From contig JAUVLC010000052.1 of NCBI GenBank assembly GCA_030595925.1, positions 1 to 17,337 on the forward strand: 17,337 bases of DNA, read 5' to 3'. The translations under genes were made by a program, and so were the position numbers. Each line of letters opens with the position of its first letter. Position 1 is the stretch's first letter. This stretch comes from Clostridia bacterium (GTDB lineage: Bacteria > CBDUZB01 > JAGLHV01). The notes beneath the pieces were generated by a model, which searched no databases, was not told where the DNA came from, and saw only the letters and a program-made list of their open reading frames with translations. This document shows, piece after piece, positions 1 through 15,230 of the stretch.

Positions 1-34
1 TTTCTTGAAAATTTGTTACAAACTTGAGCAAGTT

Positions 35-413
35 TCAAATCAATAGTAGAAAATTTGAAAATGTTAAAAAAAAGAGTATATCTGCAACATTATCGATTAC
101 TAAATCATTGATTAGTTCCACAATAAATACGAATGAACCAAATATTCTATGTAATAATTTCAATGCTAATTCGGAATTGGTCTTTAGAAGAGCTTTAAAA
201 CCAGGTTACTAAAAAGAGCGAGGTAATATTATTGGAATAATTATAAACTGCATCATTAGATTGATTATTTTCGTAGGAGTAATTTATTTTTATTTCTATA
301 TCTCCGAAAACGAAATTTTTATATTTATCTATAAGCTGTCCAAATGCTTCCTTCTCTCCCATAAGGGTTTTTTTGATTAAAATTAAATCTTCGGCAATAT
401 GTGAATTATTCAT
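35..413 (-). pseudogene. Decayed sigma-factor/Crp-like chimeric remnant
   Basis: The first ~37 residues (413 down to about 303) read like region 2 of an ECF sigma factor: an acidic start, then DLILIKKTLMGEKEAFGQLI and DKYKNFVFG. Instead of continuing as a sigma factor, the frame runs on for ~35 residues that resemble the cyclic-nucleotide-binding barrel of a Crp/Fnr regulator (FGDIEI, NNQSNDAV, SLFLVT) and stops. One frame over, from 205 down to 35, the text continues as PGFKALLKTNSELALKLL and ELINDLVIDNVAD, typical of the end of the Crp barrel and its dimerisation helix. No helix-turn-helix is seen before the window edge. I read this as two regulator fragments joined by deletion and then frameshifted. 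Similarity was judged by eye; the sigma part is the surer of the two. Confidence 0.45.
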
Positions 414-509
414 TTTTTTTATATCTCTATCTACCTTTTTTTAGCATTACTCCCGGGCAAAGCACAGGTTATGTAAGATAATACCAATTTAAATGTGTGT
501 CTTTCAGTT

Positions 510-1283
510 TTATTTTTTTCTTTCAAAATGGTCAATATCGATAACTATAGCCGCGGCTAAAATAAGAGGCTTTAAAGAATCTTCTTTGACCTTGCTTATA
601 TCCACTAAAAAATTATCCGCATCAGAAATCATTTCAGTAACCATCCCCGACCATTTTTTAAGAATTACTGCTATTTCCTGATTTAAATTATTATATATCT
701 TAAAAGTCCAGGGATGTAGAAGCGGACCAATAATAGTCGCCACTTTTTGATCATAATTGTTATATATTTCGTATCTTCTTTTTAAAATAGCAAATTTTTC
801 TTGTATTTTCCCTATAGTTCCTTTATTCGGAGTGGTTACTTCTACCTTCGAAAAAAGCCACTTGAATTTACGTACAACAGAAAGAAAAGGAATTCTCTGT
901 TCTAAAAAACTAATTACATAAGGACGATGTGTATTAGTAAAATGCCGTACTATTTTTTCCCCCGCATTTCCCTTCTTTTCAAAAATTTCTCCCACTTCAT
1001 TTGTTCCCACTCCGGTCATAAGATAGCGATTAGCTGTTTCCCATCCGGATATTATTTCCAAAGCTTCCTTTTGTTGTTGAATAATAATCTGAGTACTGGC
1101 GAGAATATTTTCACCTATCGCAGGAGAATTTTCTTCTTTAGCAACCCCCGGAGAAGTTTTTAAGGATTTATCAGGAATAAAATCGTAATAACAAGCCCAA
1201 CAGTATTTAGCTTTTACATCATTTTCTTTGCCACATTTCGGACATACGCGTTTATCCCCTTGATTTTTAGATGAATCACTCAT
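510..1283 (-). CDS. Zinc-ribbon plus phospholipid scramblase/LURP-like protein
   Basis: A 257-aa protein with two parts. Residues 14-31 form a zinc ribbon of two CxxC knuckles (C14, C17, C28, C31). After a polar linker, residues ~60-255 resemble the scramblase/Tubby-like beta-barrel fold (Pfam scramblase PF03803): repeated strand motifs such as GTIGKIQEKFAILKRRYEI, a HPWTFKI block, and the characteristic end DADNFLVDI followed by the hydrophobic helix LKPLILAAAIVIDIDHFE. Eukaryotic scramblases bind calcium and move lipids. Bacterial relatives have no settled function, so lipid scrambling is not claimed. No signal peptide; the C-terminal helix could touch the membrane. A GGAGG ribosome site lies about 11 bases before the ATG. 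It is preceded by a mobile-element-rich gap. The family call is fairly confident; the role is unknown. Confidence 0.75.
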   Translation of the reverse strand: MSDSSKNQGDKRVCPKCGKENDVKAKYCWACYYDFIPDKSLKTSPGVAKEENSPAIGENILASTQIIIQQQKEALEIISGWETANRYLMTGVGTNEVGEIFEKKGNAGEKIVRHFTNTHRPYVISFLEQRIPFLSVVRKFKWLFSKVEVTTPNKGTIGKIQEKFAILKRRYEIYNNYDQKVATIIGPLLHPWTFKIYNNLNQEIAVILKKWSGMVTEMISDADNFLVDISKVKEDSLKPLILAAAIVIDIDHFERKK

Positions 1284-1318
1284 TTTTTAATTTTCCTCCT
1301 TTTTTAATGTTACTATTT

Positions 1319-1336
1319 TAGTTCTGCAAAATACTT
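1319..1336. repeat. Solo end of the outer repeat family
   Basis: The text TAGTTCTGCAAAATAC closely matches the terminal inverted repeat of the elements at 3093-3406 and 10439-10694 (consensus about TAGAGTTCTGCAAAATGAC). No partner end is visible before the ankyrin gene, so this looks like a truncated relic. It lies just upstream of the scramblase-like gene and abuts another element. Confidence 0.4.
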
Positions 1337-1341
1337 CATTA

Positions 1342-1490
1342 GCCCAATAAAGAGATTGTTGAAAAATACGAATTTGGTAGTCGCAAACTTTAGTTTGCGT
1401 GAAAAAGTGGTAATATTTGGTAATAATCAGCAAAAAAATTCGCCGGCTGAAGCCGTCGGCTACCGTTTTTCAACAATCTCTTTATTGGGC
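1342..1490. mobile_element. 149-bp MITE-like element with perfect 25-bp inverted ends
   Basis: The ends at 1342-1366 and 1466-1490 are perfect inverted repeats of 25 bases (beginning GCCCAATAAAGAG). Inside are a smaller palindrome at 1382-1399 (CGCAAAC-TTTA-GTTTGCG) and a GC-rich hairpin at about 1442-1460, bracketed by GGTAG and CTACC. There is no open reading frame of useful length. No target-site duplication was found at the exact ends. The compact palindromic layout fits a non-autonomous mobile element or a large hairpin that could end transcription between the two flanking minus-strand genes. Confidence 0.75.
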
Positions 1491-1587
1491 AACTACAACA
1501 TAAAACTTTGACGATAAATATGTTTACTGCCTATTTCCGATTGACATCGATTATTTGAACTTTATTTTTTCATTATGACTGATTTTT

Positions 1588-3033
1588 TTACTTAAATAAT
1601 TTTTTTATAAAAGGAATCATTCCCTGTTTTAATTTTGAAAATTTCTTCTTTTTTCCCTTAGCTATAAGTACTTTTTCAACTTCATAACATTCTTCTTTTT
1701 TTGCCCAATCCGCCGCACTCATTCCCTCTTCATCAACCACCTTAATATCAGCACCATATTCTAATAATAGTAAAACATTATCTAACATTCCATTCGCTGC
1801 CGCTATTATCAAAGGAGTTTGACGACAAATATTTCTTGATTCTATATCCGCTCCTGCTTCAATCAGCATTTTCAGCACTTCCGGAACTTTCTCTGTAACG
1901 GATAAAGCCAATGAAGTATACCCGTCTTTTGTTTTTTCTTCTAAATCCGCCCCAGCCTCAATAAGTGCCTGAACCGACTGGCAATGATTTTGCCAGGAAG
2001 CAAGATGTAGTGCAGTTTGCCCAAAAACATCAACGTGATTTAATTTTGCCCCTGCCTTCGCTAATAATTTTATAATGTCTACATGTCCCTGGTCAGCAGC
2101 CAAGAGCAGTGCCGTTCGCCCATTTGTGTTTTGTATATCCATATCAGGTTTTTTTTCAAGAAGTTTTTGGACCATTAATAAATGCCCACCAAAAGCTGCG
2201 ACAATAAGTGCGGTAGGAACTCCCTGAAAACCATAATTTATCTGATTAATATCAACCCCTTCTTCAAATAGTTCATCTATATCCGCAATATCCCCTGAAT
2301 CAGCGGTTTTCCTAAGACGAACACCAATATCAAATTTATGTCTGGCTTGTTCATTAATGCTTTTTCTGTACCATTCCGCCGTTTCGATTTTATTTATCAA
2401 ATCAAATAGTTCATACTGAATCTCGCTACCTACCCCTACTTTCATTGTTTTGAGAGCAGGAAGTCTCTTTATCACATAATGGATTAACTCCATATTTTGG
2501 GAGACCTCAATATTGTCTACTAAATGTTTATATCCTTGTAAAACTCTTCCGGGGAAAGCTTCTCCCAGTTTAATAAAAAGTTTTGCAAACTCAGAATTCA
2601 AACTAACTTCCTGAATTTGCTTCAGGAACAAACATACGTTATTAGCACAGCTAAAAGCTGAGTCTAAATTATTTGCCTTTAACCGTAAATCAATACACTC
2701 TTGACCATGACGAATAATATCTTTAGGCCGTCCTAAATGCATAGCCAACTCAGCACCAACGGATTGCATCCAGGAGGCATTATTCTCCGTAAGCATGTAA
2801 ATATAAGGTTTGGTTGAATTAAGAAGGTCATAAGCTTCTTCATATTTCTTTATTTTATATAAACCTTTAAACTCATAAAATAGAGCCCAACCAATTTGTG
2901 AGGGATCAGGGTTTACCTCTTTTAATACTTCCTCTTTTAATGCATGTGCCTGTTCAAATGATTCCTTATAACATTCGTTCTTATCGTTCTGTGATAATTC
3001 CGTCATATTAATATTGAATTGCTCTTTATCCAC
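1588..3033 (-). CDS. Ankyrin-repeat protein with helical N-terminal domain
   Basis: A 481-aa protein with no signal peptide or membrane segment. Residues 1 to ~230 are helical and TPR-like (KYEEAYDLLNSTKP, GRPKDIIRHGQECIDLRLKAN). Residues ~235-465 hold about six or seven ankyrin repeats, recognisable by the repeated pattern G-TAL-xAA-xGH-xxVxxLLxxGAD, for example NGRTALLLAADQGHVDIIKL and FGQTALHLASWQNHCQSVQA. The tail is basic (KGKKKKFSKLKQ). Such proteins bind other proteins; no partner or enzymatic role can be named. The start is GTG: an AGGAG site sits 7 bases upstream and no better start follows at the right distance. The 3' end is followed by the MITE-like element at 1342-1490. Confidence 0.85.
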   Translation of the reverse strand: MDKEQFNINMTELSQNDKNECYKESFEQAHALKEEVLKEVNPDPSQIGWALFYEFKGLYKIKKYEEAYDLLNSTKPYIYMLTENNASWMQSVGAELAMHLGRPKDIIRHGQECIDLRLKANNLDSAFSCANNVCLFLKQIQEVSLNSEFAKLFIKLGEAFPGRVLQGYKHLVDNIEVSQNMELIHYVIKRLPALKTMKVGVGSEIQYELFDLINKIETAEWYRKSINEQARHKFDIGVRLRKTADSGDIADIDELFEEGVDINQINYGFQGVPTALIVAAFGGHLLMVQKLLEKKPDMDIQNTNGRTALLLAADQGHVDIIKLLAKAGAKLNHVDVFGQTALHLASWQNHCQSVQALIEAGADLEEKTKDGYTSLALSVTEKVPEVLKMLIEAGADIESRNICRQTPLIIAAANGMLDNVLLLLEYGADIKVVDEEGMSAADWAKKEECYEVEKVLIAKGKKKKFSKLKQGMIPFIKKLFK

Positions 3034-3092
3034 GTCTATTTCTCCTGAAAGTAAAAAAATATATTTATTTTATAATTCTATTAAAAAAGTTT

Positions 3093-3406
3093 TAGACTTC
3101 TGCAAAATGACCTTTTTACCTTTATTGCCTGTCCGCCAGTCCTTAAGGCGGGTCATTCCTGCGAACAGACTGTGTCATAATCCCCTTTTTGGTAGTCGCA
3201 GGGCTTTCTTGTCCGCCTGTGGAGGAAGCCTGCGGAAAATCTCCGACGATAACGCAACCTAAAAGTTGCGGCTACCACATAAAAATCGGAGTTATGACAC
3301 AGTCTGGAAAGCAGGAATCTATTGATGTTTTAAGCACATTATAGATTCCGCATCATCCGCCTGAGGCGGAGCGGAATGACAGAATGTGTCATTTTGCAGA
3401 ACTCTT
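3093..3406. mobile_element. Outer MITE-like element interrupted by a second element
   Basis: Imperfect terminal inverted repeats are present: 3094-3111 and 3388-3405 match at 17 of 18 positions (AGACTTCTGCAAAATGAC against AGAGTTCTGCAAAATGAC). The element is flanked by the 10-base direct repeat AAAAAAGTTT at 3083-3092 and 3407-3416, which looks like a target-site duplication. It contains a complete copy of the inner family at 3166-3306 and small GC-rich palindromes at 3133-3151 and 3356-3370. It has no coding capacity; the short frame across it is an artefact of the repeat. It fills the gap between the ankyrin gene and the glycosidase-like gene. Confidence 0.8.
3166..3306. mobile_element. Inner MITE-like element, 141 bp, 3-bp target duplication
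   Basis: The ends are inverted repeats starting CAGACTGTGTCATAA. GAA occurs immediately outside both ends (3163-3165 and 3307-3309). Deleting the element plus one GAA gives CATTCCTGCGAAAGCAGG, exactly the uninterrupted reading found at about 10640-10660 on the other strand. The interior (3191-3276) is bounded by GGTAGTCGCA and TGCGGCTACC. Positions 3184-3239 are identical over 56 bases, inverted, to 4766-4821. Confidence 0.85.
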
Positions 3407-3440
3407 AAAAAAGTTTATCTAAGGAAAACTTACACAAAAT

Positions 3441-4565
3441 TTATTTCTGATTATCATACGTTTTATTTTCATTGTTTACGTCTTTTTCAAGAATACTAAG
3501 CATCTCTTCCGGTAATAAATGCCTTGAATTAAATATAATCACTCCCTTTGCTTTACTGCCGGTAACAGTATCCAGCATCTTACTAAACTCTTGCTCTGCA
3601 ATATCCCGGGTTTGAATAATCGGTAAAACATCCTTGCCGGTTAATTGAGCAACATAATCAGTAATATCAGCAATCCATTTTTTGGACCGGCTACACATTT
3701 TATGATACACCATCGGTGAAAAAATATCAACATATTCTGCCAAAGCTGAATAATCCTGGCCGATAATCTTTTTTATCGCATTATTATGGTCACCGGTTTT
3801 CCAGGGAACAGTAAACATCGCTAAAATCACTTCCGGCTTATTTTGCTTAATTATTTTTCGTACATCCTTTACCAACGAAGTTATCCGTCGACATTTCCAT
3901 TCTGTCCAATCTTTTTCGTGCTCTTTAAGTAGCCATTCCGCCTTGTTTTTTGTTGTTTTCAGATTTTGGGGAATAGAGATTTTAGTCTCCTTCTGAAAAA
4001 TCATTAAACACTCGTCACAAAAGCAAGTCTGTTCCAATACTGGCTCCGGCACTTCCCAATGACAGGGATAACGAATAAAATCCAGCCAGATTCCGTCAAC
4101 TTCATAATCTGTTATTAACTGTTTAATCTTAGCCACTTTTTCTTTTCTTAGGTCTTCCTGGTTGGGACATAATCCTGCATACCATTTAATTTTAGAAATT
4201 TTTTCACCTTTGGCATTTATTGGCCTTGATTCAGGGTATTTTTCCCAATAATTCTTCCCTACAAAAATACTAATCTCAACAAAAAAATACATATTATTTT
4301 TATGTAAAGCTTTAATCATTTCTTTATTACGATAATCACCAAAAAGAGCATTTACCCCCCGGCCCTTTAATTCCTGCACAATTTGGTTTATATCTTTTCC
4401 TTCAAAATATTTATCTTTCCAATTAAATCCATAGATGGCATTGATTTTTTGGTTTGAGTCTCGTTCCGCCGCCGGGGAAAAATCTACCCCGGACAAAATA
4501 CAAATTAGAAGCATGGTAAAGATTATTATCAACTGATGTTTCAAGTTCTTCTCTTTTTTCTCCAT
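3441..4565 (-). CDS. Secreted TIM-barrel glycoside hydrolase-like protein
   Basis: A 374-aa exported protein. Residues ~8-34 form a signal peptide (HQLIIIFTMLLICILSG, cleavage probably after SPAA). The mature part resembles putative glycoside hydrolase TIM barrels (GHL/DUF4015-like). It has an early strand GVNALFGDYRN, a WYAGLCPNQEDLR block, then VDGIWLDFIRYP whose Asp (residue 162) lies where these barrels keep a catalytic or substrate-binding acid. A Cys cluster CFCDEC follows, then IFSPMVYHKM near the barrel end. Substrate is unknown; cell-envelope or extracellular polysaccharide is likely. Start choice: a GTG at 4574 opens the frame, but AAGGTG there is a good ribosome site six bases before the ATG at 4565, so I use that ATG. 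The gene stands alone between inverted repeat copies. Confidence 0.7.
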   Translation of the reverse strand: MEKKEKNLKHQLIIIFTMLLICILSGVDFSPAAERDSNQKINAIYGFNWKDKYFEGKDINQIVQELKGRGVNALFGDYRNKEMIKALHKNNMYFFVEISIFVGKNYWEKYPESRPINAKGEKISKIKWYAGLCPNQEDLRKEKVAKIKQLITDYEVDGIWLDFIRYPCHWEVPEPVLEQTCFCDECLMIFQKETKISIPQNLKTTKNKAEWLLKEHEKDWTEWKCRRITSLVKDVRKIIKQNKPEVILAMFTVPWKTGDHNNAIKKIIGQDYSALAEYVDIFSPMVYHKMCSRSKKWIADITDYVAQLTGKDVLPIIQTRDIAEQEFSKMLDTVTGSKAKGVIIFNSRHLLPEEMLSILEKDVNNENKTYDNQK

Positions 4566-4644
4566 ATAATTCACCTTAACAAATAATTTTTAAGGCATCC
4601 TGGTTTAAAATCAACTACCCCATAACACAAACTGCGAGGAATTA

Positions 4645-4839
4645 AACAATGTCACTCCTGCGAAAAAAGGAGTCTATTGCTGTAGATTCCCGCTTTTCCA
4701 GCGTGTGTTACAACTCCATTTTTTGTTTGGTAGCCACAACCTTTAGGTTGCGTTATCGACGGAACTTTTCCGCAGGCTTCCTCCACAGGCGGACAAGAAA
4801 GCCCTGCGACTACCAAAAAGGCAATTATGACACAGAGGA
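4645..4839. mobile_element. Degenerate, inverted copy of the compound element
   Basis: This is a damaged copy of the 3093-3406 compound in opposite orientation. The outer part (about 4649-4698) retains GTCACTCCTGCGAA and TAGATTCCCGCTTTTC. It then passes into a 141-base inner element (4699-4839) at the same junction as the 3.1-kb copy. Both inner ends are mutated (CAGCGTGTGTTAC on the left, ATGACACAGAGG on the right) and the distal outer half is missing. The core 4766-4821 is identical over 56 bases to the reverse complement of 3184-3239. Open frames on both strands here are repeat artefacts. Confidence 0.75.
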
Positions 4840-4929
4840 TCAAACCGTCGTTATAATCAGATAAATTACAAAAAACCATAACCCCGTAAAAAGTAAACTT
4901 TTAACCCAGCTAAAAGGAATCGAGACACC

Positions 4930-5166
4930 TCAAGGCTCAGTCATAATAATAAATATCAATAAAATTATTATTCCCGATAATCTTTGAAGTTTTGCTTCTC
5001 CTTTTCCAAAAATTTTTCTATTAAATACACCACTTATAATAAACATCACTGCACCTACAAAATAAAAAAGTGCATACCTACTAGACGGTATTTTCACATA
5101 AAAATTTAAAACTATTAAAAAAATTGCACAAGCAACCACTATTAAACTGAATGTTATATTCCCCAT
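4930..5166 (-). CDS. Small integral membrane protein, unknown function
   Basis: A 78-aa protein with three hydrophobic segments: ~5-24 (FSLIVVACAIFLIVLNFYV), ~30-47 (ALFYFVGAVMFIISGVF), and ~62-75 (LSGIIILLIFIIM), separated by short basic loops (NRKIFGKGEAKLQR). I recognise no family. A GGGAG ribosome site sits nine bases before the ATG, and composition is AT-rich like the neighbours. It is divergent from the exporter operon, sharing an intergenic space of about 200 bases. A role next to that exporter cannot be shown. Confidence 0.6.
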   Translation of the reverse strand: MGNITFSLIVVACAIFLIVLNFYVKIPSSRYALFYFVGAVMFIISGVFNRKIFGKGEAKLQRLSGIIILLIFIIMTEP

Positions 5167-5295
5167 TGTTACTTACTCCCTTTTTTGTTTTTCAAAACAA
5201 AAAATAATATAGTTTTAATTTTAACAAAATTCCTTTTTGAAAGCAATTAAATTTAACATTATTTCCATACGAGCATAAAATATATCCCACCCCCC

Positions 5296-5324
5296 TTGAC
5301 AGAGCAACAGAACTATGTTAAAAA
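5296..5324 (+). promoter_or_regulatory. Sigma70-type promoter of the exporter operon
   Basis: TTGACA (5296-5301), 17 bases, then TAAAAA (5319-5324). The perfect -35 and standard spacing support it; the -10 matches the consensus at four of six positions. The predicted leader is about 30 bases before the ATG at 5363. The -35 follows a run of C residues. Confidence 0.6.
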
Positions 5325-5362
5325 AGATACAGTAGCAACTAATTACAATAAGGAGTCAACCA

Positions 5363-6136
5363 ATGGCCAGTAAAATTATTTTTTCATTAATTTTATTATC
5401 TTTAGTTAATTTTTCAACAATCAAAACATACGCAGAAACTATTACCTCCCAGGAAATTGTAAACAAAATGAATGAGGTAATCAATCCCCAAACAGCACAG
5501 GCAAAGGCAAAGATAACTATTATTACTTCATCCGGAAAGGAAAGGACTTTTATTTATGATTCTTTCACTAAAAACCGGGGAGAAAAAAACCTCATCCGCT
5601 ATTTAGAGCCCAAACGGGTAAAAGGACAGGCGATGTTAATGCTCAATAATGCCGATGATATCTGGGCTTATTTTCCCCGCACTAAAAGAGTGCGAAAATT
5701 AGCCACTCATGCCAAAAGACAAAAATGGGAGGGTAGTGACTTTTCCTACGAAGATATGGGCTCAGGAGATGCTTTTATTGATGAATATGAAAACAAATTA
5801 TTGGGTGAAGAAAAAAAAGAAAATTATGATTGCTACAAAATAGAACTGAAAAGAAAAAAAGACAGTGACACCGGATATTCCCGTTTAATTATGTGGATAA
5901 TAAAAGATAATTTTTGTCCGGTAGTAATGAATTATTACGATAAAAAAGACACCAAATTTCTTAAAAAGGTTTTAATCCAGTATGAAATAAAAGATATCGA
6001 CGGCATTCCCACCGGGATGAAAATGACAATGTATAACAAAACCGATAATACCCAAACAACTATGGAGTTGCTGGAAATAAAATATAATTTAGAGCTGGAT
6101 GATTCTATTTTTTCTGAAAGGAATTTAAGAAGATGA
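5363..6136 (+). CDS. Outer membrane lipoprotein-sorting (LolA-like) protein
   Basis: A 257-aa periplasmic protein with signal peptide (residues 1-24, cleavage after TYA). The mature part matches the LolA-like family (outer membrane lipoprotein-sorting protein, PF17131 type). It has an early ITSQEIVNKMNEV helix, a KNRGEKNLIRYLEPKRVKGQ strand region, then DIWAYFPRTKRVRKLATHAK, EGSDFSYEDMGSGD, and a late IPTGMKMTMYNK. Members fold as an open half-barrel that holds a lipid or acyl chain and are often encoded beside MMPL/RND exporters, as here. The substrate is unknown; a hydrophobic molecule moved to the outer membrane is the natural inference. AAGGAG stands seven bases before the ATG. The stop overlaps the next start by four bases (ATGA), implying coupled translation. 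Confidence 0.85.
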   Translation: MASKIIFSLILLSLVNFSTIKTYAETITSQEIVNKMNEVINPQTAQAKAKITIITSSGKERTFIYDSFTKNRGEKNLIRYLEPKRVKGQAMLMLNNADDIWAYFPRTKRVRKLATHAKRQKWEGSDFSYEDMGSGDAFIDEYENKLLGEEKKENYDCYKIELKRKKDSDTGYSRLIMWIIKDNFCPVVMNYYDKKDTKFLKKVLIQYEIKDIDGIPTGMKMTMYNKTDNTQTTMELLEIKYNLELDDSIFSERNLRR

Positions 6137-7326
6137 AATACAGGTATGTTTTTTACCGTTGTATAAAAACATTTATTATCTTTCTGTCTTTAATATTACT
6201 ACCCCTGCATTTATATGCTTCTAAACTGGATATTTACGGCTATTTCCAACCCCAACTTACCGACACTTCTTCTAATGATGATTTTTACCAACTTTCTTCC
6301 AATAAATTACGCATAGATTTTAAATGTGAATACTCAAAATCTGTAACCTTCGGGGCTAATTATAATTTCATCCAGTATTCAGGAAAAACTCAGTGGAATA
6401 TGCTGAAATATATTCCGGAGATAATAAGTAATACTGTTCTTGCCAACCAAATCGACTCGTACGACATTTTATACGAAGATGATATAATTCTGGATAATGC
6501 CTATATCAAACTTTCTTTTAAATCTGCGGATATCACCCTGGGAAAACAACAAATATCCCCGGGAACCGGCTATGCCTGGAACCCTACAGATGTTTTTAAT
6601 TATAAAGATCTACTGGACCCTACCTACGAACAACCGGGACATAATGCTTATCGTATTGACTTCCCACTTAAGAATAAGTACAGCATAGTATTAATCTATA
6701 CCCCGGAAAGCACATTGGAAAATTCCGGAAAGCTAATGCGAATTAAAGGAAAATTAGGGCATTTTGATTACTCCCTTATCGGCATAGAAAAAGAATTATT
6801 GCTTACTGATTATTTTACTTTTGATGATACAATCCGGAAAAGAAAAATTCTGGGAGGGGATTTTGTAGGCGAATTTCTGGGGTTGGGTGTATGGGAAGAA
6901 TATGCCTACAATTTTATTAAAGACACGGATGATTTTTATGAATCGGTTACCGGAATTGATTACACTTTTATCGGAGGAACATATGTTATGTGCGAGTACT
7001 ACCGCAATACCGGTGGTAAAGATGACTATAAAAAATACGATTTAAATGACTGGCTGCAATTCATTACCGCCCAAACAAAAACTATATCCCGAAATCAAAT
7101 ATACGCATCCCTTACCCATCCAATGACTGATTTAATTACTGCAGGAACGTCTGTAATTACCAGTCTTAACGATGGAAGTCTTTCGTTAATTCCGTCTTTT
7201 ACTTATAGCTTATTTGAAAATGTTGATTTATCAATATTTTTAAATTTTAATCTGGGTAAAAAAGGAACCAACTATGACCGGACATTGGGAAATGGCGGGG
7301 TAGCAAGATTACAGGTCTTTTTCTAA
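6133..7326 (+). CDS. Outer-membrane beta-barrel protein of the exporter operon
   Basis: A 397-aa protein with signal peptide (residues 1-29, cleavage after LYA). The rest alternates polar and aromatic residues as in beta-barrels (KLDIYGYFQPQL, NAYIKLSFKSADITLGKQQI) and ends in the Phe-terminated strand ARLQVFF, the usual signal for insertion by the BAM machinery. The block GKQQISPGTGYAWNPTDVFN followed by DPTYEQPGHNAYR is typical of the DUF1302-like/porin-like barrels that sit next to LolA-like and MMPL genes. It overlaps the upstream gene by four bases and lies 15 bases before the exporter gene. It probably gives the outer-membrane route or receptor for the exporter's substrate; that role is inferred from context. 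Confidence 0.75.
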   Translation: MKYRYVFYRCIKTFIIFLSLILLPLHLYASKLDIYGYFQPQLTDTSSNDDFYQLSSNKLRIDFKCEYSKSVTFGANYNFIQYSGKTQWNMLKYIPEIISNTVLANQIDSYDILYEDDIILDNAYIKLSFKSADITLGKQQISPGTGYAWNPTDVFNYKDLLDPTYEQPGHNAYRIDFPLKNKYSIVLIYTPESTLENSGKLMRIKGKLGHFDYSLIGIEKELLLTDYFTFDDTIRKRKILGGDFVGEFLGLGVWEEYAYNFIKDTDDFYESVTGIDYTFIGGTYVMCEYYRNTGGKDDYKKYDLNDWLQFITAQTKTISRNQIYASLTHPMTDLITAGTSVITSLNDGSLSLIPSFTYSLFENVDLSIFLNFNLGKKGTNYDRTLGNGGVARLQVFF

Positions 7327-7341
7327 CCTACAGGAGAATTT

Positions 7342-10083
7342 ATGCGAGACAAAATACTTAAATCATTAGCCGGACTGCATTCAGCCCATCCCTGGAAAAT
7401 GCTATCCTTTATTCTGGTTTCCACGGTCCTGTTAGGAATAATGGCTATCCAAATAAGGCATACTATGCGCTGGTCAGATCTTTTGCCGGCAAAAGACAGG
7501 AGAACCATCCAATTTAACAAGGTACTTGATGAATTTGTATCAGCTACCAGTATTGTAGTAGTAGTACAGGGTGAAGAAGAAAAAATAAAAGCTTTTGCTG
7601 AAGCTGTAGTTCCTCAAATAATACAAAAAATAGACCCTAAAGACGGAAAACTTTTTTTTAAACGGATTGATTATAAACAGGAAACAGATTTTATTAAAGA
7701 ACACGGATTAATGTTGATTAAAGCAGACGATTTAAAAAACATGAAAGATATTTTCAAAAACCCTAACCTCCTGCCTCTACTCACTAATATCAATACCAGT
7801 CTGGAAAAGGAATATATTCAACGGGAAGAATCTATCTCCACCCGTGAAAAGGAAGATAGCGCCTTTATGTTTTTAGACGGCATAGAAAATTTTATAAAAG
7901 TAATACAAAAACATCTTTCCGGCGATTCTGTTTCCCGAAAAGATGCTCATCAATCTGCAGATAAACTGCTTACCGGGGAAGAATATATGCTTTCTTATGA
8001 TAAGCAGGCCTTAATCTTAAATGTAATCCCCAATTTTACCATGGTGAATATGCATAAAGTCGTTACCGGGACCAACACTGTTCAGGAAATAATCGATAAT
8101 TTAATGAAAAAATTTGACGGCGTTCAGGCAGGACTCACCGGTATGGTTCCTCTTCAGCGGGACGAAATGGTCTATAGTGAACAAAGCTTAGGGATTTCTA
8201 CCGTTATTGCCTTTATTGCGATTTACATATTATTGGTACTTGCTTTTAGAATGTGGATAGCTCCTCTTTTTGCTTTATTAAACCTTTTTTTTGGGGTTAT
8301 CTGGGTAATTGGCATTACTGCTATCCTTATAGGGACATTAAATATGATGACTTCGATGATGGGGGTAATTTTAATCGGATTGGGTATTGATTTTTCTATT
8401 CATATTATCTCCAGCTTTACTGAAAACAGGTCTTTAGGCCTCTCTATTGAAGATTCACTGCAGGAAACATTTCTCAACAGCGGTAAAGGTATTATCACCG
8501 GTGCTCTCACTACTGCTGTCGCTTTTTTCACGTTGATAATTTGCCGTTCCCGGGGAATGAAAGAATTAGGAATTGTATCAGGCAGTGGATTGCTGGCTAT
8601 TATGGTAGTTACTTTTTTATGTTTACCGGCCTTGCTGGTCTTAAGGGAAAAGAGATTAGAGAAAAAAATTAAAACAGGAAAATTAAAAAAGATAACCGGC
8701 ACTAAAGATATTTCCTTAAAAATACTGGGTAAAATAAGCAGCCTTTTAAGTAAAAAATATCGCTTAACTATTATTGTTTCACTAATAGTTACCGGGTTTC
8801 TGGTGTTTTCTGCCCTAAAAATAACCTTTGACCAAAATTATATGAATATGGAACCCAGAGGTTTGGATTCTGTCGAATTACAGAATGTTATACTGGAAAA
8901 ATTTGACCTTAGTATCGATTACGCAATGATCTTAGCCGATAGTGTTGCCGAATCAAGGGAACTGGCCAAAAAAATAAAAGAGCTTCCCTCGGTTGCTTCC
9001 ATAGAAAATATATCTCTTTATTTTCCCTCGGAAGAAGAGCAGAAAAAAAGAATACCCCATATTCTGGAAATAAAAAAATCATTACTGGCTTCAACATTAA
9101 ACCAGTCTTTTAACCGGACAAAGATAGATAAACTATTAAAAGAGTTGGAACGCTTAGAAATGAATGTAATGGAAATGCAAGATATGGCTTATTTAGACGG
9201 CCAGGATAAAATAGATAGTAAATGCAGTAAAATCACCGGAGACCCGGACCATCCCGAATCAATTAACATCATCCGTAAATTAATCGATTTTATTCATCAA
9301 CACAAAACTGCCAATATTTCTAAACTGGGGATATTCCAAACCTATTTTTCACCTTATTTCAAAAAAACTGCTTTGCTTATGTGTTCAGAGGAAATTATCC
9401 AACAAAAAGATTTACCCGATTCCATTTTAGACAGATATTCCAATAAAGAGCGTACCCAATTTTTAGTAACTGCTTTTCCCTCAATGAACATCTGGCAGGA
9501 TTTAGAATTTCTGGATCGATTTTCCGATGACTTAGAAAAAACCAGTGAAAAAGCCACTGGAATGCCGGTTATCTTTAGAGCTATTATTGATATTGTTGGC
9601 CGGGACGGAAGAAACGCTTTAATACTTACCGTCTTTATGGTTTTTATTCTTTTATGGCTTGATTTTAGAAGCCCTGTTGACGCTTTAATCGCTATGGTTC
9701 CCCTGATTGCCGGCTTATTCTGGATGTTAGGAATAATGAAAGTCATCGGTATGCAGATTACGATGCTGAATGTTATGGGACTACCGATGATTGTGGGTAT
9801 CGGTATTGATGACGGAGTTCATATCATGCACCGCTGGAAAATAGAAGGGAAAAATGCCATTTACAAAATTTTTGCCAGCACCGGAAAAGCAATTTTCATT
9901 ACCAGCCTTACTACAATGTTAGCTTTCGGTTCTTTAATGTTTTCCATCTGGCGGGGATTTGCCAGCTTAGGTGCAGCGATGTTCATCGGAGTAGGCGCCT
10001 GCTTTTTAACCACGATTATAATTTTATCTGCTATTATGGGACTGGTTAACAAAAAATCCGCAAGAAAAAAACAAATTAAATGA
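7342..10083 (+). CDS. RND superfamily (MMPL) exporter
   Basis: A 913-aa inner-membrane transporter in two homologous halves. TM1 (~18-38) is followed by a long periplasmic domain to ~280, then a bundle of five helices; the pattern repeats with TM7 (~475-495), a loop to ~750 and a second bundle. The signature in helix 4 is present twice: GLGIDFSIHI (residues 346-355, D350) and GIGIDDGVHI (819-828, D823 and D824), acidic residues thought to carry protons. Length and layout match COG1033 predicted exporters, including those moving hopanoids or other lipids. GGAG stands five bases before the ATG. With the LolA-like protein and the barrel it forms a likely lipid or lipoprotein trafficking system. 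The exact substrate cannot be read from sequence. Confidence 0.9.
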   Translation: MRDKILKSLAGLHSAHPWKMLSFILVSTVLLGIMAIQIRHTMRWSDLLPAKDRRTIQFNKVLDEFVSATSIVVVVQGEEEKIKAFAEAVVPQIIQKIDPKDGKLFFKRIDYKQETDFIKEHGLMLIKADDLKNMKDIFKNPNLLPLLTNINTSLEKEYIQREESISTREKEDSAFMFLDGIENFIKVIQKHLSGDSVSRKDAHQSADKLLTGEEYMLSYDKQALILNVIPNFTMVNMHKVVTGTNTVQEIIDNLMKKFDGVQAGLTGMVPLQRDEMVYSEQSLGISTVIAFIAIYILLVLAFRMWIAPLFALLNLFFGVIWVIGITAILIGTLNMMTSMMGVILIGLGIDFSIHIISSFTENRSLGLSIEDSLQETFLNSGKGIITGALTTAVAFFTLIICRSRGMKELGIVSGSGLLAIMVVTFLCLPALLVLREKRLEKKIKTGKLKKITGTKDISLKILGKISSLLSKKYRLTIIVSLIVTGFLVFSALKITFDQNYMNMEPRGLDSVELQNVILEKFDLSIDYAMILADSVAESRELAKKIKELPSVASIENISLYFPSEEEQKKRIPHILEIKKSLLASTLNQSFNRTKIDKLLKELERLEMNVMEMQDMAYLDGQDKIDSKCSKITGDPDHPESINIIRKLIDFIHQHKTANISKLGIFQTYFSPYFKKTALLMCSEEIIQQKDLPDSILDRYSNKERTQFLVTAFPSMNIWQDLEFLDRFSDDLEKTSEKATGMPVIFRAIIDIVGRDGRNALILTVFMVFILLWLDFRSPVDALIAMVPLIAGLFWMLGIMKVIGMQITMLNVMGLPMIVGIGIDDGVHIMHRWKIEGKNAIYKIFASTGKAIFITSLTTMLAFGSLMFSIWRGFASLGAAMFIGVGACFLTTIIILSAIMGLVNKKSARKKQIK

Positions 10084-10428
10084 TATTAGCAGCCATTGTT
10101 AAACCGCACATACAATATATCCTCATCCGTTTTGAATCTTGATTTTTAGTCTATCTTACGTCCCATTACATAACATTCAGAATAATTTATTCTACCTTAT
10201 CCCGGCACAACTACTTCTTACATCATTTTTTTGAAATAGTCAATCTTTTATACTTTGATTAAATAAAAAAAGAAAAAACATTCCAATAATGCCTCCATTG
10301 AAAACAATTTCATTTCAAAAATTTAGTTTTTTTTAAAAAAATGAAATATTTTAGACTGCCCGATTGTATATAGAGAGTAATCAAATAAATAAACACAAAA
10401 TAGGGTAGCAAGACAATTAAATTAACTC
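10084..10428. other. AT-rich non-coding spacer
   Basis: There is no credible gene between the exporter stop and the repeat at 10439. The only structure seen is an AT-rich palindrome at 10307-10347 (ATTTCATTT and AAATGAAAT arms around a T-rich loop), which could weakly end the exporter transcript. The right-hand edge supplies the left target duplication of the next element. Confidence 0.5.
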
Positions 10429-10438
10429 ACACAATTTC

Positions 10439-10694
10439 TAGAATTATGCAAAATAACACATTCTGTCATTCCGCACTTGGAGACTGTGTCACAATTGATG
10501 TAGTTGCCCAATTTATTGGGCTGCTGAATGATTTTGTCGATGAGCCTCATAAATGAGGCAACTACAATTGTCGCAAAAACAGCAATTGTGACACAGTCTG
10601 TTGATGCGGAATCTATAATGTTTTTAAATATTAACAGATTCCTGCTTTCGCAGGAATGACAAAGAAAGATAGAAAGCCATTTTGCAAAACTCTA
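10439..10694. mobile_element. Second outer MITE-like element, interrupted by inner element
   Basis: The ends TAGAATTATGCAAAATAAC (left) and the inverse of CCATTTTGCAAAACTCTA (right) belong to the family at 3093-3406. Flanking direct repeats of ten bases, ACACAATTTC (10429-10438) and ATACAATTTC (10695-10704), differ at one base. Shared interior includes CATTCTGTCATTCCGC and GATGCGGAATCTATAATG. An inner element is inserted at 10480-10600, at a different point from the 3.1-kb copy. It ends about 20 bases before the ribosome site of the next gene, so it may carry or separate that gene's promoter. Confidence 0.8.
10480..10600. mobile_element. Inner MITE-like element, 121 bp, 3-bp target duplication
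   Basis: The ends pair as GAGACTGTGTCACAATTG and the inverse of CAATTGTGACACAGTCTG, with a mismatch only at the first base. TTG occurs just outside both ends (10477-10479 and 10601-10603). The interior differs from the 3.1-kb copy: it is bounded by TGTAGTTGCC and GGCAACTACA and contains the hairpin GCCCAATTTATTGGGC and the hairpin GCCTCATAAATGAGGC. Ends of one family enclosing a different interior suggest a variable cargo. Confidence 0.8.
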
Positions 10695-10712
10695 ATACAA
10701 TTTCAAAAAAGG

Positions 10713-10720
10713 AGGAGGTG
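10713..10720 (+). promoter_or_regulatory. Consensus ribosome binding site
   Basis: AGGAGGTG, seven bases before the ATG at 10728, is a near-perfect match to the 16S rRNA 3' end and supports real, strong translation of the short gene that follows. Confidence 0.8.
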
Positions 10721-10727
10721 ATATAAT

Positions 10728-10928
10728 ATGAAAAAACTATGTATGCTTTTAGTTATTGTTTTTGCAGTAGTTCTTGTTTCCGGACAAGTGTCGGTTTTTG
10801 CCGGTGATCAAAATACCGAACAGCATGAAAACCGTGAAGATTCACAGGTAAGACCTGGAGATGAGGACGCCGGAGGCGAGGAGACAGAAAAACGTGAACA
10901 AGCAAAAGACCCGGACGATAAACCATAA
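10728..10928 (+). CDS. Small secreted acidic protein, probably disordered
   Basis: A 66-aa precursor: signal peptide residues 1-25 (KKLCMLLVIVFAVVLVSG, cleavage after VFA), leaving a 41-residue mature peptide of which 15 residues are Asp or Glu and almost none hydrophobic (GDEDAGGEETEKREQAKDPD). No family recognised. The very strong ribosome site and the terminator just downstream mark it as a real single-gene unit rather than a chance frame. An acidic, soluble, extracytoplasmic peptide could bind cations or cationic surfaces; that is speculation. The promoter must lie in or before the repeat at 10439-10694. Confidence 0.7.
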   Translation: MKKLCMLLVIVFAVVLVSGQVSVFAGDQNTEQHENREDSQVRPGDEDAGGEETEKREQAKDPDDKP

Positions 10929-10958
10929 TAATTACTATTTCTTTGATGTAAAATGCCA

Positions 10959-11024
10959 ATTATAAAAAAAAGGGGGGGGTGTTGTCAGGACAAAATAATT
11001 TTGACACCACCCCTTTTTTATAAT
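10959..11024. terminator. Bidirectional intrinsic terminator
   Basis: A long imperfect hairpin: left arm ATTATAAAAAAAAGGGG and onward to TGTTGTCA, right arm TTGACACCACCCC then a run of T and ATAAT. The G-run/C-run stem with a flanking T-tract on either strand can end both the small secreted-protein transcript and the convergent minus-strand cluster. Confidence 0.85.
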
Positions 11025-11305
11025 CTTTGTAGTCTTTGAAAAATGTTGCTTGTTTCCTAAAAAATCAGCATTTTAACCCTTTCCAATGAATAAAACATTA
11101 ATATTACTGTAAGTTTTCCACAATTGTTAATAATATTTAACAACAATTTAAACATTTGTATCTATACATTAATGTAATATAACTGTAATACAAACGAAAT
11201 ATTTTTTCAGTCATACTGAACATACATTATCTCGAAAACATACTCTTCTCTCATCAAAATCAAAATAAAATAAGGCCTTTTCGTTGATTTTGGAAAAGAT
11301 AACTT

Positions 11306-11878
11306 TTATTCTTCTATAATAATTTCATCCAAAGCCCGCTTGGGCACATGGTGTACCCCCTCAGTATCGCGCCAGTATTTTATATCTCCGGAACCCTGCA
11401 CTTTCGCAATTACCACCGTTTCTTTGGGTTTACCCAAAGCCAGAACCAGCAATATCTCGTACCGGGGTAATATCCGGAGAGTATCTCTTAATCTCTTTCG
11501 ATCTATCGCCCCAACTATACAGCCTCCCCAACCTTTTTCCACCGCACCCAGCAAAATACTTTGAGCTGCTATACCCGGATCACTACCAAAAGAATCTCTG
11601 ATTTGGGTGTCCCCCAAAATGATGATATATGCCGAAGGCCTTTCTCCCTCCTCCGGACCAGACCAATCTTTAAGATAACCTGCCCAGGCAAGACGGGGAA
11701 AAATCAAAGCATTCTTTTGTACCTCGCAGGAAAGAATATATTTCAGCGGCTGTAAATTACTGCCAGAGGCAGAAAGCCTGGCCAAATCTACAAAATCTCT
11801 CAATTCTTGAGTTTCTATACTAACCTCCTGATAAAATCGGCGGTAACTCCTATTTTTTAAAACTAAATCCCTAATCAT
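11306..11878 (-). CDS. Nitroreductase family protein
   Basis: A 190-aa FMN-dependent oxidoreductase of the nitroreductase fold. Visible landmarks are NRSYRRF near residue 9 (FMN phosphate contact region), LSASGSNLQPLKY (~35-47; family form PSAGNLQPW), GIAAQSILLGAVEKGWGGCI (~102-121; the central helix and flavin contact), and LVLALGKPKE (~144-153). Such enzymes take electrons from NAD(P)H to reduce nitro compounds, quinones or other small electrophiles; the native substrate cannot be told. AGGAG six bases before the ATG supports the start. It is the last gene of the minus-strand cluster, 21 bases after the 80-aa gene, and no dedicated promoter was noted. Confidence 0.85.
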   Translation of the reverse strand: MIRDLVLKNRSYRRFYQEVSIETQELRDFVDLARLSASGSNLQPLKYILSCEVQKNALIFPRLAWAGYLKDWSGPEEGERPSAYIIILGDTQIRDSFGSDPGIAAQSILLGAVEKGWGGCIVGAIDRKRLRDTLRILPRYEILLVLALGKPKETVVIAKVQGSGDIKYWRDTEGVHHVPKRALDEIIIEE

Positions 11879-11899
11879 ACAAATCTCCTGTCTTAAAAT

Positions 11900-12142
11900 T
11901 TAAATTTTCTCTTTTATTGTCTCTATCATCCATTTATCTGCTTTAACAATATATGAAATTTTACAGTCTTTACCATTATCCAATCTGATATTAAAAATTT
12001 CCTTTTCCGGTGTCCGCATTCTACTAATAATTTTTTCAATTTTGTATCTATGCTTATCAATAATTACTACGTTGGGAACACCGGGATATTTGTAATCAGC
12101 ACTACATTCAACTAAGATTTCTTTTTGAATAATTTCTTCCAT
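11900..12142 (-). CDS. Conserved-looking hypothetical protein, 80 aa
   Basis: I recognise no family. The protein is soluble and looks beta-rich, with alternating strands (PNVVIIDKHRYKIEKIISRM, EIFNIRLDNGKDCKISYIV) ending in KADKWMIETIKEKI. Its first 31 bases overlap the end of the upstream Cys-rich gene in another frame, a layout that implies co-translation and some selection to keep them together. The ribosome site is weak (AGGCGAG). It could be a small partner of the neighbouring zinc protein; that is only inferred from overlap. Confidence 0.6.
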   Translation of the reverse strand: MEEIIQKEILVECSADYKYPGVPNVVIIDKHRYKIEKIISRMRTPEKEIFNIRLDNGKDCKISYIVKADKWMIETIKEKI

Positions 12143-12405
12143 TGTTCTCTCGCCTGGTCTGTTTTATCTTTATTTTTTTCAGGTAGGGATTTATCAGCAA
12201 ATTGAAATTGCTCACAAAAATTTGCTTTGTCTTTGTTTTTTACCGGATCAAGATTATTAACCTGACATTGATTTGATTTGTGTTGGTCATAAAATCTGCA
12301 GTTCAAACAGACATGTAAATCCTCGGCACATTTAAGGCAGGTATCTCTTCTTCCGGGTTGATTAAACCCTTCCCAGATTGTACGGCAGTTATGACAGTAT
12401 TTCAT
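12112..12405 (-). CDS. Cysteine-rich zinc-binding protein
   Basis: A 97-aa soluble protein with eight cysteines in two groups. C4/C7 pairs with C23/C26 as one zinc ribbon. C33, C36, C47 and C64 form a second site in the pattern CLNCRFYD-x-C-x-NFCEQF, which I recall from small conserved proteins of deltaproteobacteria and candidate phyla but cannot name. The tail is charged and lysine-rich (ending KKLFKKKS). It sits between a methyltransferase gene and the overlapping 80-aa gene. Nucleic acid or protein binding is possible; no enzymatic motif is seen. Confidence 0.7.
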   Translation of the reverse strand: MKYCHNCRTIWEGFNQPGRRDTCLKCAEDLHVCLNCRFYDQHKSNQCQVNNLDPVKNKDKANFCEQFQFADKSLPEKNKDKTDQAREQWKKLFKKKS

Positions 12406-12465
12406 TGTTTTAAAAAGGAAATATCCTCCGATAGATATAATACAAAACTGCGATAATAAATAAGT

Positions 12466-13086
12466 TTACTTTTTTTCCCCTGATATTATTATAAAACCGC
12501 CTTTCCCAAAACCTTTTTTTGGTTCTTGAATTGACTTTATTTTACCTGGAAGATCAAATAGTGTTTGATAATAATAAAAATTAAAAAACCCGGCATTTTC
12601 TAATAAACCTGTTATCTCTTTGACATTGAAAAATTTCGCCTTTTTATAGAAAACCCCTCTTTTTTTCTGATAGTTTTTCCCCAAAAAACTATTTTTATCA
12701 ATTATCCCTACAATGACCTTGCCCTTTTCCTTTAAAACTCTTCCACTTTCTTTTAAAACTTTTTGTGGATTCTGAACAAAGCAGAGTGTAATAATAATCG
12801 CTACATAATCAAAAGTAGAATTTTTGAATAGCAACTGTTCACCGGAACCCACTTTTGCATTTACACCTCTCTTTTTGGCAAGCCTAATCATATTTTCCGA
12901 TGAATCAATTCCTGTTTTTATATTCAAAGGAACAGCAAATCTTCCCGTACCCACACCAATTTCCAATCCTTCTCCTTTTTTAGGCAAAACTCTTTTAACC
13001 GCTTCAAGTTCCGATAAATAAACAAATTCGTTTTTATTATACCAGTCGTCATATTTTTCCCAGTATTGGTTAAACACTGTTTTCAT
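12466..13086 (-). CDS. Class I SAM-dependent methyltransferase
   Basis: A 206-aa Rossmann-fold methyltransferase. Motif I is LEIGVGTGRF (residues 41-50); the acidic ribose contact is D61 in TGIDSSENMIRLAKKRG. The later GSGEQLLFKNSTFDYVAIII (80-99) is the motif II/III region and VLKEKGKVIVGIID the strand after it, as in the UbiE/Methyltransf_11 group. An N-terminal helix (FNQYWEKYDDWYNKNEFVY) probably caps the substrate site. Substrate unknown; small-molecule rather than nucleic-acid methylation is the usual role of this group. A CGGAGA ribosome site lies nine bases before the ATG. Confidence 0.88.
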   Translation of the reverse strand: MKTVFNQYWEKYDDWYNKNEFVYLSELEAVKRVLPKKGEGLEIGVGTGRFAVPLNIKTGIDSSENMIRLAKKRGVNAKVGSGEQLLFKNSTFDYVAIIITLCFVQNPQKVLKESGRVLKEKGKVIVGIIDKNSFLGKNYQKKRGVFYKKAKFFNVKEITGLLENAGFFNFYYYQTLFDLPGKIKSIQEPKKGFGKGGFIIISGEKK

Positions 13087-13157
13087 AAAAATAAATCTCC
13101 GCTAAGAAATTAAATTTAGTCTATTTAAAATCCACTATTTTAAACATTGATTCTTTA

Positions 13158-13355
13158 TCAACAGGTGGGACATGTTCCTGACGGACAGCTTGACCCGGAT
13201 GAACCCGAATTTCCTACACTAAACGAACTTAGTGTCTTCTCAATTTTCCTGCTTCCACATTTTTTGCATTTGAGTTCCGCTTTTTCAGAAGTAACCCCTA
13301 TTAATAAATCAAATTTTTCACCACAATCTTTACAAATATAAGTATAAATAGGCAT
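13158..13355 (-). CDS. FmdB-family zinc-ribbon protein
   Basis: A 65-aa protein of the FmdB/CxxC_CxxC_SSSS family (PF09723). It opens with the family hallmark MPIYTYICKDCGEKFD, with C8 and C11, then LKCKKCGSRKIEKTLSSF with C30 and C33, and a Ser/Gly-rich tail ending CPSGTCPTC. It binds zinc, and the family is named after a regulator in methylotrophs, but the general role is unknown. It lies 61 bases downstream of the Mrp ATPase gene. Confidence 0.9.
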   Translation of the reverse strand: MPIYTYICKDCGEKFDLLIGVTSEKAELKCKKCGSRKIEKTLSSFSVGNSGSSGSSCPSGTCPTC

Positions 13356-13416
13356 ACTCTTTTCTCCTTATTTTCTTAAGTATTTATAGACCCCTGCAAA
13401 TTACACGTAGGTTACC

Positions 13417-14250
13417 TTATAACCCCTTGTCTTTTATATAAGCGTTAATTTTATCCGTTATTTCATCCATTATTTTTGCTGTTTGTGTTTCTTTTTTGAA
13501 ATAGATAAACGGTTGTCCGGAATCTCCCAGTTTTACTATTTCAGGTTCAAAAGGAATTCTTCCTAAAAACGGTACTTCTAAATTATGAGCTGCATTCTCA
13601 CCCCCGCCCATTCCAAATAAATCTATTTCTTTCTTACAGTGAGGACATATCAAACCACTCATATTTTCAATTATTCCAATGACAGGAACATTTACTTTTT
13701 TTGCAAAAAAAACGCTTTTTCTGGAATCCAAGATAGCAACTTCCTGTGGTGTCGTAACAACAATTGCCCCTTTTGCATCCGGAATAAGCTGACACACACT
13801 TAACGGTTCATCTCCCGTTCCGGGAGGAGAATCAACAACCAAATAATCAAGCTCTCCCCAATTAACATCTGTTAAAAATTGTTTTATAGTTATCATCTTC
13901 AGAGGTCCCCGCCAGATTATCGGCTGATCTTTGTCCTCTAATAACAAAGCAAGACTTATCACTTTTAAATTAGGCAACACCTGGAAAGGCTCAATTCCTA
14001 ATTCAGAACTTACAAGTCTTTTCCCTTCAATTCCCAACATCTTAGCAATATTCGGACCATGAATATCAACATCCAAAATACCCACCTTGTTTCCTTTTAC
14101 TGCCAGACCATAAGCTAAATTAACCGCTACTGTAGTTTTGCCAACACCGCCTTTTCCGCTGATAACAATGAGCTTATGTTTTATTTTAAGCATTCTCTCT
14201 TTAAGACGTTTGTCCTGTTCAATTTTTTCTTTTTCATCTACTTTTTGCAT
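13417..14250 (-). CDS. Mrp/NBP35-type iron-sulfur cluster carrier ATPase
   Basis: A 277-aa P-loop ATPase of the Mrp/ApbC/NBP35 family. The deviant Walker A is [10 protein letters not shown] (residues 31-40) with the signature Lys33. Walker A' is [17 protein letters not shown] (57-73). Switch II is [13 protein letters not shown] (138-150). The CPHC pair (C202, C205) would bind a bridging 4Fe-4S cluster between two subunits for transfer to apoproteins. It lacks the N-terminal DUF59 domain of longer Mrp proteins. A GAGG ribosome site stands eight bases before the ATG. The nearby ferredoxin and zinc-ribbon proteins suggest an iron-sulfur or metal-handling cluster. Whether it assembles clusters for a specific client is unknown. 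Confidence 0.92.
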
Positions 14251-14335
14251 TAACTAAACCTCTTACCCTATATTTATTCTTTTTTTTAACTATTTTACCC
14301 CTTCTATTAAATCCCCTTCATCAAAAAACTTTTTC

Positions 14336-14719
14336 TTACATCGCCTCCAACATCACACAAAGATTATAGATAACACTAATTTTATTCTTTTTGCAAAATT
14401 CTATGGCGTTTTCACTTTCCGCTCCCGGTTGAAACCATACACGATAGATATCTTTCTCCTTGCATTCTCTCACAATTTTTTCAGTTACTTTCGGCGGTGT
14501 AACTAAATTAACAACATCTACCAAAAAAGGAATATGGATTATACTCTTATAACATTTTAGGCCATCCACTTCATTCATACTGGGATTCACTGGATAAACT
14601 TTATAATTTTTTTCTTTTAAGTTTTTTAAAATTTTGAAAGCATATTTAGTTTCATTTCTGAATGAACCTATAACGGCAAAATTTTTCTTTCTTAAAAAAT
14701 CTTTAACTAAATTTTCCAT
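14336..14719 (-). CDS. CoA-binding protein (YccU-like)
   Basis: A 127-aa Rossmann-like protein of the CoA_binding_2 family (PF13380). Landmarks: NFAVIGSFRNETKYAFKILK (residues 13-32) forms the nucleotide loop and helix; YKVYPVNPSMNEVDGLKCYKS (39-59) and VDVVNLVTPPKVTEKIV are the second and third strand blocks; VWFQPGAESENAIEF (93-107) and the end LCVMLEA are family hallmarks. It is about the usual length of stand-alone members. Proposed roles concern acyl-CoA or CoA sensing and are not settled. It sits between the ferredoxin gene and the Mrp ATPase gene, with a weak ribosome site (GCGGGA). Confidence 0.88.
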   Translation of the reverse strand: MENLVKDFLRKKNFAVIGSFRNETKYAFKILKNLKEKNYKVYPVNPSMNEVDGLKCYKSIIHIPFLVDVVNLVTPPKVTEKIVRECKEKDIYRVWFQPGAESENAIEFCKKNKISVIYNLCVMLEAM

Positions 14720-14778
14720 TTTTTAATTTCCCGCATAACTTCTAAAATTTTTTTCCTCTTTTAGCTTTACACAGGATT

Positions 14779-14952: not shown

Positions 14953-15075
14953 TTTTTCCTCCTTTATACTTCTTTTAAATTTTTTTAACGATATACCATT
15001 TTGAATTTACATCCAACCCTTATATAAATTAAATTGTCCCTCTCTCACATTCTTCTCCCTATAATGTTATTTTGT

Positions 15076-15104
15076 ATTATAGCAAATTCAATCTATTTAT
15101 TCAA
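15076..15104 (-). promoter_or_regulatory. Promoter of the ferredoxin-to-nitroreductase cluster
   Basis: On the minus strand, TTGAAT (15104-15099), 17 bases, then TATAAT (15081-15076), preceded by TTTGC. The -10 is perfect and spacing is ideal. The predicted leader before the ferredoxin ATG is about 115 bases. No other strong promoter was noted between the clustered genes downstream. Confidence 0.7.
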
Positions 15105-15230
15105 GAACATTCCTCTTCATTAACCAAATATAAACTCTTTTCCCATTCCGGAAGAAATAATAAATTATGCACACAAGTTGATAAAATCAACAAATTAATT
15201 TTCTATACCTCCCCCCTTACTGTTTTTACA

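Follow-up and report, generated by a model that had tools for sequence, protein, structure and literature searches.

Nested elements in the window

The DNA analysed here (the window) comprises positions 1 to 17,337, read on the forward strand, of contig JAUVLC010000052.1 from the Clostridia bacterium assembly GCA_030595925.1, and carries two copies of a short non-coding repeat, each interrupted by a second, smaller repeat. Outer copy 1 (3093-3406, plus strand; ends TAGACTTCTGCAAAATG / CATTTTGCAGAACTCT) is a MITE of 314 bp with its inner element and of ~170 bp without it. It lies between two copies of AAAAAAGTTT, which form its left and right target-site duplications (3083-3092 and 3407-3416, no strand assigned). 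These 10-bp direct repeats can also be read as 12 bp in common (TTAAAAAAGTTT), because the right (3') end of the element is ambiguous by 1-2 bases.

Within outer copy 1, a target hairpin has been split in two. Its left arm and loop (GTCATTCCTGCGAA; 3152-3165, plus strand), ending in GAA at 3163-3165, precede inner element 1, a 141-bp IS1182-type MITE that reads CAGACTGTGTCATAA...TTATGACACAGTCTG (3166-3306, plus strand), and its right arm (GAAAGCAGGAATC; 3307-3319, plus strand) opens with the second copy of GAA at 3307-3309. When the two flanks are joined with one GAA removed they give the hairpin GTCATTCCTGCGAAAGCAGGAATC, with the insertion point in the loop, and the same hairpin is intact on the minus strand of outer copy 2, where the empty, uninterrupted target reads CATTCCTGCGAAAGCAGGAATC (10637-10658). 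The core of inner element 1 (3192-3275, plus strand) was identified by computation and inspection as an inverted pair of GTAG-tagged hairpins, in a REPIN-like arrangement. In addition, comparison with outer copy 2 reveals a second hairpin in outer copy 1 (3344-3381, plus strand), the loop of which has been changed by a 16-bp palindrome.

Outer copy 2 spans 256 bp in the opposite orientation (10439-10694, minus strand), between a left target-site duplication, ACACAATTTC (10429-10438), and a right one, ATACAATTTC (10695-10704), that are identical at nine of ten positions (again with no strand assigned). The loop of its other hairpin holds inner element 2, a 121-bp IS1182-type MITE (10480-10600, plus strand) flanked by duplicated TTG at 10477-10479 and 10601-10603. 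A stretch of ~940 bp (10102-11041) that includes outer copy 2 is missing from one sister species (compared with L234:7408-7420); a small exported-peptide ORF within this stretch (10729-10929) is kept by the other sister species, at a contig end.

A third, decayed inner element (4683-4835, minus strand) lies in a stretch (~4617-4847) that is missing from both sister species. A related element, also of the hairpin-loop kind, has the ends GAGATTGTTGAAAA / TTTTCAACAATCTC and lies within a GTAG repeat (1352-1480, plus strand); its flanks, AATAAA / TTTATT, are palindromic and not duplicated, and it is probably an inversion product. Elsewhere in the window, the minus strand at 510-1283 encodes a predicted member of the scramblase family (Pfam PF03803), which is better known from eukaryotes; the protein has a zinc-ribbon-like motif at its N-terminus.

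A preliminary description of this locus had recognised the outer element by its 10-bp direct repeats, had given the inner element as 141 bp long between GAA repeats, and had placed the inner insertion after the outer one; all of this is borne out here. It had also pointed to the uninterrupted sequence in the second outer copy, which is correct for the hairpin at 10637-10658; the other hairpin of that copy is not empty, and its inner element at 10480-10600 was missed. The hairpin-loop site specificity and the IS1182 membership of the inner elements were likewise overlooked.

Two mobile families

The locus orthologous to that of outer copy 1 is present in a sister species (G002 contig 333; L234), with the same flanking genes and no outer element. 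This empty site reads ...TTTTATTAAAAAAGTTTATCTAAG... and holds one TTAAAAAAGTTT copy with nothing between (L234:1074-1085), which proves, by comparison of the two sequences, that outer element 1 is an insertion. Given this empty site in a congener, the outer element was either gained in the lineage of the present species or lost precisely from the other. The outer end has 67 matches in the genome with up to two mismatches, against 8 for the reversed control, and a direct repeat of 8-12 bp flanks 18 of the 26 paired outer copies found in the host's own genome and its genus; the sister species also has outer copies of 97-163 bp that lack an inner element. The outer element is thus short, non-coding and multi-copy, with terminal inverted repeats and a duplication of near-constant length, as MITEs are.

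An autonomous partner or transposase of the outer family was not found between outer ends (TAGASTTYTGCAAAATR) in the host's own contigs. The congener contigs contained no long pair of outer ends, all such pairs in the genus being short, and in viral contigs the matches to the outer end were single and unpaired, again with no autonomous partner. The host's DDE_Tnp_1 genes were considered as the source of the outer family's transposase and rejected, since they belong to IS1380 and IS4 and have unrelated ends. The outer family is left without a name and would use a transposase of its own.

The ends of the inner elements read (C/G)AGACTGTGTC(A/G)(T/C)AA, and the inner end has 96 genome matches with up to one mismatch, compared with 1 for the reversed control. 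The draft host assembly (G000) consists of 193 contigs, and host-genome statistics were taken from 842 kb of stretches around matches; these contain 43 inner elements with both ends, most of them of 107-180 bp, once members of the GAGCC family had been taken out (47 before). An exact 3-bp repeat flanks 25 of the 43 and a 4- or 5-bp repeat none. Together with the 8-12 bp repeats of the outer copies, this confirms the initial proposal that two distinct families, each with its own duplication length, are mobile.

Beyond two congeners, the closest relatives in the comparison set share only the domain with the host. The hairpin-plus-end junction, searched across species genomes of bacteria and archaea, was located at 30 loci. 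These belong to Nitrospirota (Candidatus Magnetominusculus among them), Deltaproteobacteria (Syntrophaceae, Smithella) and Omnitrophota. Most Magnetominusculus contigs end 80-95 bases into the junction element, as expected of a multi-copy element that breaks assembly. One full-length IS with the exact hairpin-end junction was recovered, in the Nitrospirota MAG Nitrospirae MYbin6 (L135). This element of 1,805 bp (CAGACTGTGTCATAAT...ATTATGACACAGTCTG) is inserted between GTCATTCCCGCGAA and GAAAGCGGGAATC; the first 16 bases of its ends are identical to those of the inner elements, it occupies the same target hairpin and it is flanked by the GAA duplication. Its 484-aa transposase (P0001), which has DUF772 and DDE domains, reaches 390 bits with NF033551, the NCBIfam equivalog model of IS1182 (cut-off 270). 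Furthermore, other IS1182 genes in the junction-bearing genomes have AGACTGTGTC(A/G)(T/C)AA upstream, and three annotated plasmid IS1182 elements, which have (C/G)AGAC(C/T)GTG ends in common, begin with GAGACTGTG, CAGACCGTG and CAGACCGTG, compared with CAGACTGTG in the inner element. Because the full-length IS with the same ends encodes an IS1182 transposase, we conclude that the inner elements are non-autonomous IS1182 derivatives (MITEs). Among the papers searched, none reported IS1182 MITEs.

No IS1182 transposase was detected in the host assembly by a family search that found matches in 6 of 14 control genomes, a result that is not final because the assembly is fragmented. The searched viral contigs held neither relatives of the IS1182 transposase nor the hairpin junction. 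The assignment to IS1182 covers the descent of the inner ends, and a host transposase is a condition for present activity only. The preliminary description had called both families moving or recently moved; their mobility is upheld, whereas current movement is not, as no transposase of either family was detected in the assembly. The full-length transposase carrying the same inner ends, which it had proposed to look for, exists in MYbin6, so that of the two families it had left nameless the inner one can now be named.

Insertion into hairpin loops

The flanks of the inner elements share a feature at fixed distance. An ATTCC arm with at most one mismatch stands at -11 or -12 relative to the element in 71 of 86 flanks, compared with 4.35% of random positions, and the exact arm is present in 44 of 86 (0.4% at random positions). 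The targets used most often, CCTGC-GAAA-GCAGG and CCGCA-CTTGA-TGCGG, both form hairpins whose loop contains the duplicated triplet, and five complete copies from other genomes (L118, L123, L126, L133 and L135) have GAA on both sides at the same hairpin position. Stem scores of the reconstructed sites range from 1 to 8, and 7 of 25 reach or exceed the 99th percentile of the null; that they stand only moderately above the null is due in part to mutation of many arms after insertion, and the test for an arm at fixed distance carries more weight. Inner elements are also present in hairpins that do not belong to an outer element, and intact target hairpins without an insert gave 36 matches.

The duplication was kept in 20 of the 25 copies that have both flanks of one hairpin type (intact pairs), and in none of the nine chimeric pairs, in which the flanks are two different half-hairpins. 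Chimeric pairs without a duplication are what recombination between copies predicts, by deletion between direct and inversion between inverted copies. The 18 of 43 copies without a duplication were considered as an argument against transposition, which we rejected because nine of them hold half-hairpins of two different sites. Canonical arms are missing on at least one side in 5 of the 25 duplicated sites, indicating that the hairpin specificity is strong and not absolute.

At the level of sequence, these comparisons establish the ends, the duplications, the empty sites, the position in the loop and the IS1182 transposase of the full-length relative. We conclude, with a probability of roughly 0.9, that the inner element descends, as a MITE, from a hairpin-loop-specific subgroup of IS1182, that it was inserted by a cut in the loop with a 3-bp duplication, and that the nesting arises from target choice. 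A transposase, presumably supplied in trans now or formerly, would bind the inner ends and recognise short hairpins of the form ATTCCNGC-loop-GCNGGAAT, perhaps as an extruded cruciform or a single-stranded hairpin. A 3-base staggered cut in the loop would then yield the 3-bp duplication (GAA/TTC or TTG/CAA) at each insertion. Other mobile repeats carry many copies of such target hairpins; one of these repeats is the outer MITE, which presumably inserts by a transposase of its own, with a duplication of ~10 bp. The presence of inner elements within outer ones thus follows from the choice of target and not from chance.

The strongest competing explanation is that the target is read by primary sequence alone, as an ATTCC arm at a fixed distance, with the hairpin incidental to a palindromic target repeat. 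The constancy of ATTCC fits this, as does the fact that most sites belong to one repeat family. Against it, hairpins with unlike loops (GAAA, CTTGA) and unlike inner stems are both cut centrally, the stems CCTGC, CCCGC, CCGGC and CCAGC each serve as targets, in different phyla, and a sibling family targets another class of hairpin, again in the loop; known members of IS1182 moreover read hairpins without a sequence consensus (PMC4923244, PMC5678879). We regard this alternative as unlikely, though it retains some weight. The two unlike loops and the four different stems favour recognition of structure rather than of sequence.

Far less probable is IR-replacing, blunt-end transposition as in IS1272, with the flanking repeats as remnants of the hairpin and not a duplication. 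IS1272 and TnSha1 have the same family of transposase, and they too insert in hairpins, where blunt cuts take out stem sequence and no duplication results (PMC5678879, PMC4923244); the copies without a 3-bp repeat would also fit. However, the intact pairs keep the whole hairpin plus three bases (left GCGAA, right GAAAGC, compared with the empty GCGAAAGC), and the copies without a duplication are mostly chimeric or mutated. The 20 intact duplicated sites contradict this alternative, although it could hold for a minority of copies. The outer repeat might instead be a composite palindrome, with the inner part as an old module of its own and GAA...GAA as an accident of symmetry. This agrees with the presence of inner elements in both outer copies of the window, but deserves almost no credence, being refuted by the empty, intact hairpins and at odds with the different hairpins occupied in the two outer copies, with the 97-163 bp outer copies of the sister species, and with inner elements in hairpins beyond outer elements and in other phyla.

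Loop insertion by an IS1182-type element, as favoured here, resembles the IS1182 insertion sequences, IS1272 and TnSha1 in particular, in the transposase family of the full-length relative and in insertion into hairpins, and the ends begin with (C/G)AGAC(T/C)GTG as in the three annotated family members. Unlike IS1272, which takes out part or all of the stem-loop without duplication or sequence preference, the inner element is a transposase-less MITE that strongly prefers one class of hairpin, keeps that hairpin and duplicates a 3-bp triplet of its loop. IS1182 would thereby gain a second mode of insertion, a loop cut with duplication, besides stem removal.

Among REP-associated elements, IS1397 makes a 3-bp duplication in the REP loop. 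Insertion into REP palindromes has been described for IS1397, ISKpn1, IS621 and others of the IS3, IS110, IS4, IS256 and IS5 families, with IS1182 not named (PMC1525189). The site-specific insertion of IS1397 and ISKpn1 (IS3 family) and of IS621 (IS110 family) into REP/PU palindromes is similar to that of the inner element (PMC1525189), but their transposases belong to other families and their targets are enterobacterial REPs, not hairpins within transposon-like repeats.

An element that seeks hairpin loops, together with other mobile repeats that supply them, would explain why small mobile repeats nest at the same base. It also suggests a safe-site strategy, in which landing in existing non-coding repeats spares genes. 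The natural before-and-after pairs, from at least three phyla, offer substrates for testing whether a DDE transposase reads DNA structure.

REPIN-like cores and deeper nesting

In the cores of the inner elements, GTAG-tagged palindromes stand as inverted pairs, which is how REPINs are built (PMC3733652). Of 13 Y1_Tnp (Y1-transposase) matches in the host genome, one has the same repeats within 1.5 kb: this Y1-type (RAYT-like) gene (L190; G000:C71, ~7974-8303) is accompanied over that distance by several GTAGTTGCC palindromes like those of the inner-element cores. With an inverted GTAG pair and a RAYT-type transposase in the same genome, the core appears to be a REPIN. GTAG REPs and REPINs are moved by RAYT transposases (PMC3733652), and the inverted GTAG-tagged pairs and the host's Y1_Tnp genes accord with this; here, unlike in REPINs, the REP pair is the cargo of an IS1182-type MITE, and its loops are targeted by a further element.

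In the stretches that were scanned, the loops of GTAG palindromes hold 19 copies of the element with ends GAGATTGTTGAAAA, 17 of them with a direct 4-bp TTTA/TAAA repeat, and another element in such loops has the ends GAGCCTGTGCCA. One nest in L112 (~5600-5920), as judged by inspection, apparently combines an outer element, an inner element, a REPIN, a GAGATTG element and a second GTAG pair, the left outer half having been lost. More tentatively, and with somewhat less than even odds, several unrelated or distantly related MITE families of this lineage (with 3-bp duplications in the AGACTGTGTC type, and 4-bp TTTA/TAAA duplications in the GAGATTGTTGAAAA and GAGCCTGTGCC types) may form a guild of hairpin readers, each finding safe sites in the palindrome loops of the others and together building nests four to five deep. 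Their 3- or 4-base staggered cut in the loop would be an IS1182-like mode distinct from the IR-replacing mode of IS1272.

The IS of Nitrospirae MYbin6 itself lies inside a larger inverted repeat, in which at least 60 bp of one flank (3507-3566) recurs inverted ~100 bp past the other end (~5473-5532). Finally, the 16-bp palindrome in the second hairpin of outer copy 1 (ATCCGCCTGAGGCGGA; 3354-3369) replaces loop bases, and similar short palindromes (TTGTCCGCCTGTGGAGGAA) fill the loops of GTAG repeats elsewhere; these short palindromes in hairpin loops are possible cases of stem-loop replacement.
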